From assembly GCA_947494335.1 (NCBI GenBank), contig CANLUT010000005.1, positions 213,828 through 277,827 on the forward strand: 64,000 bases of DNA, read 5' to 3'. How positions within the stretch are numbered: position 1 is the first letter of the stretch; the number at the start of each line of letters is the position of its first letter. A model generated the notes under the pieces. It worked only from the letters and a program-made list of their open reading frames with translations, searched no databases and was not told the DNA's origin. The DNA is from Oligoflexales bacterium. GTDB taxonomy: Bacteria > Bdellovibrionota_B > Oligoflexia > Oligoflexales > RGVZ01. This document shows, one piece after another, positions 43,559 through 47,974 of the stretch. The position numbers and the translations under genes were made by a program.

Positions 43559-43771
43559 ATGGCCCGCGTATCCATCGAAGATTGCCTAGAATATATGGAA
43601 AACCGTTTTGCCCTCGTGGCCGTTGCCGCAGATCGTGCTCGCCAATTGATGGCAGGACAAGTTCCTACCGTACGCACGAAAAACAAAGAAGGCGTAACAG
43701 CCCTTCGCGAGATCGCAGATGGCAACATCGAGAGCGATCGTCCCGTTCAAAATAACGTCGGGGAAGAGTGA
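43559..43771 (+). CDS. rpoZ: DNA-directed RNA polymerase omega subunit
   Basis: 70 residues. Omega promotes assembly of RNA polymerase by holding the beta' C-terminus. MARVSIEDCLEYMENRFALV, then AADRARQLMAG and KEGVTALREIADG are the family pattern. AGGAG lies five bases before the ATG. Its own promoter precedes it and a terminator follows. spoT and gmk, frequent neighbours, are absent. Confidence 0.93.
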   Translation: MARVSIEDCLEYMENRFALVAVAADRARQLMAGQVPTVRTKNKEGVTALREIADGNIESDRPVQNNVGEE

Positions 43772-43843: not shown

Positions 43844-43869
43844 AAAACCCCGGCCTTGCCGGGGTTTTT
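43844..43869. terminator. Rho-independent terminator after rpoZ
   Basis: AAAACCCCGGC, loop CTT, GCCGGGGTTTT plus a further T: an 11-bp stem and U-tract, 72 bases after the rpoZ stop. On the opposite strand it begins at the stop codon of the convergent gene, so it may serve both. Confidence 0.92.
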
Positions 43870-44228
43870 CATTCGGCTGCCATGGCGGCAGGCCCAAGAA
43901 TCATGAAAGTCAGGCATTTCTCAGCAACCATCTCTTTGGTCACGTAACGATCGTCAAACCAAAACTGACGCGCCAGCTCATCATAGATTTCGTCTGCTAT
44001 GTGAAGCGCAACGAAATCGAGCATGGTTTCTCGCATTTCAACATAATCCCAAATTAAATCTGGATGAGCGGCCGCCGCACTATTTTGCTGCTCTGCGAGC
44101 CTTAATATGTCGCCTCCCGCGTCAGCTGGAACTCTTGCGCGAATGAAGTGGTCAAGTCGCGACCTGTAGCGCTTCATGTAGCTGCGCTGCTGCTTCTGTT
44201 TGAATGTATCAAGCCTTACGATGCTCAT
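43869..44228 (-). CDS. Helical protein, unknown function
   Basis: 119 residues, all helix by appearance: TFKQKQQRSYMKRYRSRLDH, then LHIADEIYDELARQFWFDDRY, then CLTFMILGPAAMAAE. A single cysteine. The start is uncertain: ATG 44228 has no good ribosome site, Met18 is an alternative. Converges on rpoZ and shares the terminator. No family recognised. Confidence 0.5.
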   Translation of the reverse strand: MSIVRLDTFKQKQQRSYMKRYRSRLDHFIRARVPADAGGDILRLAEQQNSAAAAHPDLIWDYVEMRETMLDFVALHIADEIYDELARQFWFDDRYVTKEMVAEKCLTFMILGPAAMAAE

Positions 44229-44496
44229 AACTGCTCAGTACCGCATGCGGCACGCCTCCCATGTATTGGCGGGCTTGGAGGCCTTCTCCCCCAGGCTCTT
44301 TAGAGTCCATTCGGAATTCCAACTGAATTCTTTACTTTTTTTTAGTCCCCCCCCTTAAAAAAAGCCTGTCTAGGTAGGTAAAAAGTGCCTGGAAAAATAG
44401 GCAAATTATTCATAATTTCAGATACTTGCAGTCAGTTTTGGGGTCGGTTATGATGACTAGTGGAAGAACCTGTAATTTCAGGCGGGAGCGTCTCTA
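44229..44496. other. Divergent intergenic region with homopolymer tracts
   Basis: About 270 bases between the leftward helical protein and the tandem paralog pair, with runs of eight T and eight C (C at 44347-44354) and a promoter (separate entry). No gene supported. Confidence 0.5.
44426..44454 (+). promoter_or_regulatory. Sigma70-type promoter for tandem paralogs
   Basis: TTGCAG at 44426-44431, 17-base spacer, TATGAT at 44449-44454, 42 bases before the first paralog start. Confidence 0.55.
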
Positions 44497-44871
44497 ATGG
44501 CTTTTCGAATAGGTGACACGGTATTTTCGCCGTCCGGCTCTCCAAGCGTTGTTGTAGGCCGGGATGATGCTAAATCGACCATGAAAGTCGATCAGGATTT
44601 TAAGGCGTTTCAAGTGGCTACCCGACACGGTTTGGTTAATGGCTTGGCCCCTGAATCTCGCGAGCAGTTCAATGCAATCATGGATGAAGTGATGAGCGAT
44701 AATGACAATTCTGAACGCGTCGGAGTGTTGCAATCTAAGATTGAGGAGCTGAAGTTAGACCCAAGAAACACGAAGCTCGTTCAATATCTCGAGGGCGAGG
44801 TGCGTCACTTGATGAACATCAAGGGTATCAAGCCTAGATTTTATAATACTGAAGAGGGGAAAGTACGCTGA
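44497..44871 (+). CDS. Tandem paralog A, unknown function
   Basis: 124 residues, GGGAG eight bases upstream. N-terminal 30 residues are beta-like (RIGDTVFSPSGSPSVVVG), resembling a small KOW/SH3-type barrel; the rest is helical, SREQFNAIMDEVMSDNDNSE, then KIEELKLDPRNTKLVQYLEG, then GIKPRFYNTEEG. The C-terminal two-thirds aligns with the next gene along its whole length. No signal, no membrane segment, no cysteine. No family recognised; nothing nearby suggests a pathway. Confidence 0.7.
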   Translation: MAFRIGDTVFSPSGSPSVVVGRDDAKSTMKVDQDFKAFQVATRHGLVNGLAPESREQFNAIMDEVMSDNDNSERVGVLQSKIEELKLDPRNTKLVQYLEGEVRHLMNIKGIKPRFYNTEEGKVR

Positions 44872-44940
44872 TGCCATGGATGGTGACGCGTGAGTTCGAT
44901 TTGTTTGCAATTAAAGTTTTAAAACATCAGGGAGGGTACA

Positions 44941-45333
44941 ATGGGTCCGGTAAAAAATGTAAACATTGGGGATATCGTGTCCCGCTCAGGAAACTACACT
45001 GAGCCTGGAGTGGTTGTTGAGCGTCGTGTCGACGGAACCGTTTTGGTGGATACTGAGCCCAACACGGTCAGTCAATATCACCGTTACACCAATACGACGG
45101 GTTTATCGGAAGAGGAAAAAAATCAATTTAACGGCATTCTCGACCAAATCTATCAAAAGAATAATGACATTGAGCGTATCAATGACATCCAAAATGAGAT
45201 CGACAAATTAAGAATGAATCCCGATAGCCAAAACGTCGTTCGGTATTTGCGTAACCAGCAAGCTTTCTTGATCCGAGAGGCGAGAGGATTGCCGCGGATG
45301 TATCAAACCGACGACCGTCACGTGAAGGGATAA
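44941..45333 (+). CDS. Tandem paralog B, unknown function
   Basis: 130 residues, GGGAGGG five bases before the ATG. Same architecture as paralog A: NIGDIVSRSGNYTEPGVVVE barrel-like start, then KNQFNGILDQIYQKNNDIER, KLRMNPDSQNVVRYLRNQQ and GLPRMYQTDDRH. Alignment to A is clear: QFNAIMDEV/QFNGILDQI, LDPRNTKLVQYL/MNPDSQNVVRYL, RFYNTEEG/RMYQTDDR. So the pair arose by duplication and has diverged considerably. A terminator follows. Function unknown. Confidence 0.7.
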   Translation: MGPVKNVNIGDIVSRSGNYTEPGVVVERRVDGTVLVDTEPNTVSQYHRYTNTTGLSEEEKNQFNGILDQIYQKNNDIERINDIQNEIDKLRMNPDSQNVVRYLRNQQAFLIREARGLPRMYQTDDRHVKG

Positions 45334-45395: not shown

Positions 45396-45941
45396 TTAAG
45401 TTTTTAATCCACCTGAGCTTGCCTGACTCCCTGAGTGAGCTCGCGGTGGATTTTTTCTTTTGTGCGATTCTGGCGTACTCCAATAGTGATCTGGCAACTC
45501 ATAGCATTCAAGCATGAAGCGGTGGGATTCTCCTGAGGGCATCTTTATGTCTAGAAATCCGGGTAGCACGGTTCCGTTGTATCCCGTCTCGACGCCTTGA
45601 TCGGAAATGCCAAACCAGTTCAACTCCTGCTCCGCGATCGGGCTTGCTGTGATTTTATACAAATCCCAGCTTGAAGGCTCGGGTGTCAAAACATTTTTAC
45701 CGAGTGCTGGTATGTGGAGCCAGCGATCCGTGTATCCCAGCACGACCGTTACTTGCATTGAGATCAGGCCATCGGTGCGATCTTTCCTGAAATCGACTTT
45801 CGTGAATGCACCCGCCTCTGACGAAAGACATCGAGTCATGTGTGGTTGTGATAGCTTTAGTTCCGACTCAGCGTGCGTCACCTTGGGTACAATTAGTGCA
45901 AGCATACTCATTAAAAGTCTAGTGTTTATGAATTTGCACAT
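45396..45941 (-). CDS. Exported protein, unknown function
   Basis: 181 residues from ATG 45941, five bases after AAGGAGG. Signal INTRLLMSMLALIVPKVTHA, two cysteines (MTRCLSSE, LECYELPD) probably paired, strand-rich (ISMQVTVVLGYTDRWLHIPA). The C-terminal tail (HKRKNPPRAHSGSQASSGG) is basic and low-complexity and overlaps, on the opposite strand, the terminator of the paralog operon. No family recognised. Confidence 0.6.
   Translation of the reverse strand: MCKFINTRLLMSMLALIVPKVTHAESELKLSQPHMTRCLSSEAGAFTKVDFRKDRTDGLISMQVTVVLGYTDRWLHIPALGKNVLTPEPSSWDLYKITASPIAEQELNWFGISDQGVETGYNGTVLPGFLDIKMPSGESHRFMLECYELPDHYWSTPESHKRKNPPRAHSGSQASSGGLKT
45408..45456 (+). terminator. Terminator after tandem paralogs
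   Basis: TCCACC at 45408-45413 pairs with GGTGGA at 45445-45450, with further inner pairing (GAGCT/AGCTC), followed by six T. It lies inside the 3' end of the convergent exported-protein gene. Confidence 0.75.
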
Positions 45942-46165
45942 GATGACCTCCTTGTGGCCTGGGGTCATGCCTAGCAAATTTTTGAAATGAGGTCATTGCG
46001 CGAAAATTTTCCACACTGAAGACGAAATCGCACAGTGTCCAGGCTCAATGTGATCACCCTCCAAAAAATGGGTGATGGGCTGGATAGACTGATGAGAACA
46101 ATTTGTTTAGTCGAGTGGTGCGGGGTCAAAGTGATCCTCGAAAAAAATTCGAAAAGGAGATTATG

Positions 46166-46696
46166 ATGAGAATCAAAACTATGTTGGGAACGCTGGGAGC
46201 GATCATCGCAGTCAATTCGTCAGTTGCGATTGCCGATCAAGGCGGGGATGATGAGCAGTTTCAGGCAGAGAAAATCAGGATACACTGTCAGTCAGATGGG
46301 GATGCTTCCTCTATGCTCGGGCAGAGTCAAGTTGATTTAGAGGCTGATCTTAAATTCACACTGAAGGTCAGAGATGATGGGGTGCGCGTCATCGAAGAGT
46401 TTGGAGGAAATATCTCTCTGGATCCAGGACAAGCGGTATCGCAAACGCTTGTTGCTCGTTTCGAAAACGAGGGTGCTACGGAGAATGTTGATTTTCATCC
46501 GCGTGTATACAAGGGATTTTCACAGTTTCGTAATATTAATGCGACCAGTGTTGTGGGCGAGCAGGCCCTGACAATGGTTGGAAATTTTTTGATTGAAAAG
46601 AATATAGACAAAGAAAAAATTCGTGCGGTCTACCAGTTTCAAGCTGGAGATAGCATGGGTGGCACGCTGCACTTTACCTGTAAGAAACAGTTTTAA
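46166..46696 (+). CDS. Exported protein, unknown function
   Basis: 176 residues from ATG 46166 (AAGGAG six bases upstream). Signal MLGTLGAIIAVNSSVAIADQ. Mature part beta-rich with two cysteines (IHCQSDGD, FTCKKQF) at the two ends, which could clip the fold: SQVDLEADLKFTLKVRDDGV and FENEGATENVDFHPRVYKGF. No family recognised. Converges on the degenerate receiver-TPR gene. Confidence 0.6.
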   Translation: MRIKTMLGTLGAIIAVNSSVAIADQGGDDEQFQAEKIRIHCQSDGDASSMLGQSQVDLEADLKFTLKVRDDGVRVIEEFGGNISLDPGQAVSQTLVARFENEGATENVDFHPRVYKGFSQFRNINATSVVGEQALTMVGNFLIEKNIDKEKIRAVYQFQAGDSMGGTLHFTCKKQF

Positions 46697-46714: not shown

Positions 46715-47974
46715 TCACGCGACGTCCAAGTCGTCCTTGGGAAGCTTTTGTGGGCTCTGTTTAAGGGTCTCAAGAGTTTTTTGAGCCTTCTTGTAATTTG
46801 GCTCCTTGATAAGGGCCAATTCTAGAAACTCCTTGGCTAACTCTGGACGCCCCCATTTTGCGTAGCAAAGCGCAATATTGTAGAAGAGCCTTGGGCTTTT
46901 TTCCTGCTGCGGCAGCACATATTGCGCTTTGCTGTAATGCTCCAGCGCCTCGGCGTAGCGCCCATCTTTTGCAAGCTCAATACCGTGAGTATTCAAATGC
47001 ACCGCGAAACGGTAGGCAAGGCTGGATCTGGACAGCAGAAGGCGCGTCTCCTCGAGATCATCTTTGGCAAATGTTACCTCTGCGAGGCCGTTAAGAGCCT
47101 TTGCGCACCATGCATCTTGATCGAGTGCGCTACGAAAATATGGTTCGGCCTTCCCCGGGTTGTTCAGAGCCAACTGTACTTCGCCCATGGCGACCAGGCG
47201 TCGGACCGAGCCTCGATTTTGCATATGCATTTTTTGAAGCAATGCATATGCACCCTGATGGTCGCCGGCTTGTCGTTTAATATCTGCCAGGCGGTTCCAT
47301 CCCCGAAAATAGTTAGGATGAGTATCGAGTGTCTTTCTTAGTGTCTCCTCGGCGCTTTGAAGGTTTCCGGTTTTAATTTGGAAACTGACGACAGCCTCCG
47401 TTTCAGCTAGGGAGGGGGTTGTCGATGGATCGCGTAGTTTCTTGATGGTGGCTGCGATCTTCTCGACAAAACCTGGTTGCGGTTGTTTTGGTGAATTGTC
47501 GATCGCGGCAGTTAACTTGGCCCAAACTGAGTCTTTAATGAAAGTGCGATATTTTGAAAAAATGTCATCTAGATGTTGTTGAATTTCTTTTGTCGCCTGA
47601 TCAATATCCTTTTCTCGAAGTCTCGGACGAACGACCCGCTTAACGCCAAGCTCGGCAAAGTAGATAACATCTTCATGAACAGGGTTGGTTGTAATGACAA
47701 TCACGCGGTCCGATGTGTCGAATTCCGGCGTTATTTCCAAAATTTCTTCCAAAATGGCACCGCCGCCGCGATGCTTTCCCTCCCAGTGGATAACGATACA
47801 TGAAGCCTTGGATAATCGACCCCAGCTTTGGCGAATCAGCGTATTGCTCGGTACCTTAATGCTTGTCACGGCGCCTGGTTGGACTGCACGCCTTGTGAAG
47901 TCCCATATCCAGGACGCATCGTCCAAGAAGATGAGGACTTCATTTTTGGTCAACTTGTCATTTACCTGCTGCAT
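46715..47974 (-). CDS. Degenerate receiver-TPR protein
   Basis: 419 residues. Residues 1-130 have receiver-domain layout: VLIFLDDASW (acidic pair Asp18-Asp19), SCIVIHWEGK where the phospho-acceptor Asp should be, VIVITTNP (Thr), and VVRPRLR with Arg replacing the conserved Lys. So it is a pseudo-receiver, not phosphorylatable by the usual route. From about 195 to the end are TPR repeats (NLQSAEETLRKTLDTHPNY, GKAEPYFRSALDQDAW, YAEALEHYSKAQYVLP). Probably a cytoplasmic adaptor. Similar receiver-TPR fusions exist in deltaproteobacteria. Ribosome site weak. Confidence 0.7.
   Translation of the reverse strand: MQQVNDKLTKNEVLIFLDDASWIWDFTRRAVQPGAVTSIKVPSNTLIRQSWGRLSKASCIVIHWEGKHRGGGAILEEILEITPEFDTSDRVIVITTNPVHEDVIYFAELGVKRVVRPRLREKDIDQATKEIQQHLDDIFSKYRTFIKDSVWAKLTAAIDNSPKQPQPGFVEKIAATIKKLRDPSTTPSLAETEAVVSFQIKTGNLQSAEETLRKTLDTHPNYFRGWNRLADIKRQAGDHQGAYALLQKMHMQNRGSVRRLVAMGEVQLALNNPGKAEPYFRSALDQDAWCAKALNGLAEVTFAKDDLEETRLLLSRSSLAYRFAVHLNTHGIELAKDGRYAEALEHYSKAQYVLPQQEKSPRLFYNIALCYAKWGRPELAKEFLELALIKEPNYKKAQKTLETLKQSPQKLPKDDLDVA

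Follow-up and report, generated by a model that had tools for sequence, protein, structure and literature searches.

A conserved tandem pair of small paralogous proteins in Oligoflexia that co-occurs with flagellin

In the class Oligoflexia, two adjacent paralogous genes, here called A and B, encode small soluble proteins of a family that is undescribed and, as far as searched, restricted to this class, and across the 58 species genomes sampled (Oligoflexales and Silvanigrellales) the pair occurs only where flagellin is also encoded. We analysed the pair in a window of 64,000 nucleotides, the whole stretch of DNA under study, from a genome of the Oligoflexales. What we describe is a real and conserved family with a usable functional lead rather than a proven new mechanism. 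To our knowledge, Oligoflexia such as Oligoflexus, Silvanigrella and Spirobacillus, the last of which is a parasite of Daphnia, have been little studied, and their flagellar systems even less.

A reading made from the sequence alone had described two adjacent genes of 124 and 130 residues whose products are alignable yet well diverged paralogues, and both parts of this description stood. The genes are co-directional open reading frames separated by 69 bp in the window (Table 1), and BLASTP aligns nearly the whole length of A with B at 40/123 identical residues (33%, E=1e-17). The Smith-Waterman score of the two proteins is 156, compared with a mean of 30 (sd 5.4) and a maximum of 62 across 2000 shuffles, and a profile-profile comparison relates them with a probability of 99.7%. 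Conservation is uneven between the paralogues, with a mean column identity of 59% for B against 38% for A, and 19 invariant positions in B against 3 in A. A search of both proteins for membrane stretches found none, and the dS between members of the genus is already saturated.

Table 1. Coordinates and properties of the A-B unit in the window
Feature	Position	Strand	Details
Candidate operator	44375..44403	+	palindrome TAGGTA-N5-TGCCTG (44375-44391) and third half-site TAGGCA (44398-44403)
Promoter-like TTGCAG-17-TATGAT	44426..44454	+	sequence; kept in five genus members
Ribosome-binding site of A, GGGAG	44484..44488	+	sequence; 8 nt before A
Gene A	44497..44871	+	124 aa, soluble, pI 6.1; beta unit then three helices
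Ribosome-binding site of B, GGGAGGG	44930..44936	+	sequence; 4 nt before B
Gene B	44941..45333	+	130 aa; the more conserved of the two paralogues
Intrinsic terminator after B	45406..45461	+	hairpin 45406-45452 then T run
Invariant residues of B			G10 D11 G17 P22 G23 G32 T38 H47 T52 G54 L55 K60 N64 D68 L103 N105 Q107 R112 P118

The view that the pair is a self-contained unit with its own transcription was likewise supported. Upstream of the A promoter lies an operator-like palindrome of the form TAGGYA-N5-TGCCTR, which is kept in the five genus members of the upstream alignment and is the sole perfect match within the window, partly by construction. This palindrome together with the third half-site is probably the binding site of a regulator. 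The promoter had been called good, and it is kept in the five genus members, but the word was generous: its -35 element agrees with the consensus in TTG only, for which reason it fell below the threshold of the promoter scanner and was not listed. The strong ribosome sites claimed for both genes were found, and most homologues are preceded by purine-rich sites. So was the terminator, a strong one whose RNA fold of -23.7 kcal/mol (z -5.65) was equalled by 0/200 shuffles; it overlaps the 3′ end of a convergent open reading frame (45396-45977, minus strand).

The pair, as marked by B, is present in 45/58 genomes, including relatives assigned to Oligoflexus, Pseudobacteriovorax, Silvanigrella, Spirobacillus cienkowskii and Fluviispira multicolorata. 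In 43 of these 45, A directly precedes B, with gaps of 11-96 bp across the homologous loci, so the homologues are found as neighbours rather than singly and unlinked. In one exception (G024) both genes are present but unlinked, A having stayed by its usual neighbours while B has relocated; in the other (G018) the place where A usually lies coincides with contig ends. A scan with the B alignment recovered 36 loci, all consistent with Oligoflexia, and when 84,980 species genomes were scanned with patterns, no relative could be assigned outside the class. Some of the matching records bear loose titles (Betaproteobacteria, Zetaproteobacteria or Bdellovibrio bin, for instance), but their contigs are identical to those of genomes assigned to Oligoflexia. 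The contig scan with the single A sequence returned no match, presumably because patterns built from one A sequence are too divergent. One Silvanigrellales genome has a second, unlinked copy of B, located on a short contig (L075, G053:C136).

The surroundings of the pair differ between the two orders. In Oligoflexales the unit often lies between rpoZ with a 119-aa gene on one side and a gene for a REC-TPR protein on the other, while the flanks in Silvanigrellales are different, with gatCAB and solute-binding proteins nearby. Since the flanks change and the order A-B stays, adjacency has been kept despite changing surroundings. In the tree, all A sequences fall on one side and all B sequences on the other side of a single branch with a support of 100. 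This separation into two clades places the duplication that produced A and B before the split of Oligoflexales and Silvanigrellales.

Several of these neighbours deserve a brief description. The 119-aa protein (43869-44228, minus strand) belongs to a family with conserved WDY, R66 and WF that adjoins rpoZ (43559-43771) in most Oligoflexales and was not found in Silvanigrellales; its gene is divergent from A, and a comparison of the protein with A and B gave no homology. In many Oligoflexales the REC-TPR gene (46715-47974, minus strand), which encodes a TPR protein with a response-regulator-like N-terminus, lies next to B in convergent orientation. In the window it is separated from B by two open reading frames with signal-peptide-like starts (45396-45977, minus strand, and 46103-46696, plus strand), and in close relatives such as G001 it lies immediately 3′ of B without them.

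We modelled B with AlphaFold from 35 sequences and obtained a beta hairpin, a short helix and three helices at a pLDDT of 82 and a pTM of 0.71. A second model treated A, the linker and B as one chain, translated by reading the DNA through its in-frame stops, together with 12 relatives that also have A and B in the same frame. It reached a pLDDT of 81 and a pTM of 0.62, a value that does not decide whether A docks on B; its A half has a pLDDT near 90 and the same fold as B, and the linker is disordered. The models agree with the barrel-like start and helical remainder proposed earlier, except that the start comprises 2-3 strands and no full barrel. Fold searches gave nothing significant in the PDB (no match below E 0.8 for B or 0.5 for A-B) or in a viral fold library, and the best VIA-align Z scores, 5.4 and 7.6, cover generic three-helix stretches. 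Matches in Pfam, NCBIfam, PHROGs, PADLOC and PDB sequences were at chance level and mutually inconsistent, in accordance with the earlier statement that the proteins have no recognisable family.

The functional lead comes from the distribution of flagellin, which we scored with PF00669. Flagellin is encoded in 50/58 genomes, all 45 with the pair among them, and none of the eight flagellin-free genomes (G011, G012, G015, G019, G020, G021, G028, G040) carries the pair (Fisher p 7e-7, without correction for the tree). On the RpoB tree the loss of flagellin maps to five branches, none of which has the pair. Of the supported independent comparisons, 3.7/4 run in the same direction and 0 in the opposite one; since there are only four such pairs, p is 0.125 at best and a tree-corrected value below 0.05 is out of reach. 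The earlier note had seen no partner for A and B, and the phylogenetic profile supersedes that by pointing to the flagellum.

Five genomes have flagellin and lack the pair (G002, G007, G009, G013, G017). The absence in G007 is an assembly gap, because its contig ends inside the neighbouring REC-TPR gene; the G002 assembly is 66% complete, and those of G013 and G017 comprise 1130 and 680 contigs. In G009 (50 contigs, 89% complete) both neighbour genes are missing as well, which suggests a gap there too. Oligoflexus tunisiensis has been described as non-motile in culture (PMC5154148), whereas the Oligoflexus-like genomes examined here carry both flagellin and the pair.

The main rival to a flagellar role is that A and B serve as a housekeeping or stress factor specific to the class, with no functional tie to the flagellum, and that the pair was lost alongside flagella only since streamlined, sessile or host-bound lineages shed many accessory genes together. 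The association is a correlation, and the link may be indirect in just this way. The flagellin-free genomes are mostly smaller and lie on long branches, and all eight also lack the neighbouring REC-TPR gene. However, other accessory traits track the pair less closely than flagellin does. All 13 genomes without the pair retain PilO, a type IV pilus gene, so there was no general loss of surface organelles. Chemotaxis follows the pair worse than flagellin does: CheW is absent from 5 genomes with both flagellin and the pair, and G028, which has neither, encodes it. The REC-TPR gene and the 119-aa neighbour are absent from many genomes that have the pair. We also considered a chemotaxis link directly and rejected it, the apparent CheA cluster near the pair being a mixture of histidine-kinase ATPases. 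In favour of the rival, no recognised flagellar gene was found beside the pair in the genomes examined, where the recognised neighbours are rpoZ, REC-TPR, a ketopantoate reductase-like gene, gatCAB and others. We regard this rival as possible but less likely than not.

A second alternative, that A and B are a CarD/CdnL-like pair of transcription factors that adjusts the expression of a gene set, for instance the flagellar genes, is unlikely. In such proteins the N-terminal beta unit would dock on the RNA polymerase beta subunit and the helical part would touch promoter DNA, and the plan of A and B, a small N-terminal beta unit with a helical C-terminus, is alike, as are the openings of the proteins (MAFRIGDTVFSP versus MTFNIGDKAVYP). 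The rpoZ gene lies near the pair in Oligoflexales, and a Foldseek search with the A-B model places CarD of Thermus and CarD of Mycobacterium in its first two ranks. These matches, however, are not significant (E 0.5 with probability 0.15, and E 0.66 with probability 0.23), and hhalign against the CdnL of the same class gives a probability of 1.6% for A and 0.1% for B. The proteins of the window have no match to PF02559 at E up to 1, and the first 25 families in the lists for 34 A and 35 B members do not include PF02559. Tryptophan is absent from A and B in the window and from the conserved columns of the family, whereas W85 in the C-terminal domain of CdnL (numbering of the CdnL of this genome) is invariant in 18 sequences from the class; an ordinary CdnL moreover coexists with A and B in the same genomes. 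CarD_CdnL_TRCF proteins have a five-stranded Tudor-like N-terminal domain followed by a further domain (PMC4374960); our models show 2-3 strands and then helices, and CarD heads the Foldseek list without significance. Direct profile comparison does not support homology of A and B to CdnL.

Two further features of CdnL in the class may be recorded here. Its gene lies 1-2 kb from a flagellin-type gene at several loci (G032:C75, G016:C5, G038:C394, G018:C181 and G039:C10; L196 is an example). It is also retained in flagellin-free Oligoflexia genomes.

Two small, adjacent, co-directional genes under one promoter would also suit a toxin-antitoxin or phage-defence pair, but this is highly improbable, as A and B are paralogous to one another, usually occur in a single copy, and show vertical inheritance and a stable position across Oligoflexia, a defence-system search gave no model above chance, and neither gene was found in the phage records and viral contigs searched, by which a phage or mobile origin was also rejected.

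Our preferred, still tentative reading, which we place just short of an even chance, is that A and B form a soluble factor of two subunits that is peculiar to Oligoflexia and associated with the flagellum. Following the duplication, A and B would have been kept as one unit, and the two proteins would act as subunits of a single small cytoplasmic factor. That A binds B is somewhat favoured, and a heterodimer is plausible because of their strict co-occurrence. B would carry the surface that contacts a conserved target in the cytoplasm, as its high conservation and invariant polar residues (H47, N64, D68, N105, Q107 and R112 among others) suggest. This target could be the flagellar export or basal machinery, or the gene-expression machinery that makes flagellar parts; whether the pair acts in flagellar biogenesis or its regulation we judge to be close to evenly balanced. 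The bolder proposal of a new two-protein factor needed to build or regulate the flagella of Oligoflexia, one whose fold is absent from the PDB and which has no equivalent elsewhere in bacteria, is conceivable though we lean against it. Being near-universal in flagellated Oligoflexia and absent from flagellin-free ones, the pair offers a two-gene list for a class-specific motility part. It is also a clean case of duplicated genes kept adjacent over very long times, suited to the study of how paralogues turn into obligate partners.

Among known systems, A and B invite two comparisons. With CarD_CdnL_TRCF proteins (PF02559) they share a small cytoplasmic form, an N-terminal beta domain, a helical C-terminal part and a faint similarity in the first residues, but they are shorter (124-130 against ~160 residues) and are paired paralogues. 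From clade-restricted flagellar accessory proteins they differ in that they are tandem paralogues with no relative found outside the class and are encoded apart from recognised flagellar genes; like such proteins, they are small, soluble and clade-specific, and they follow flagellin.
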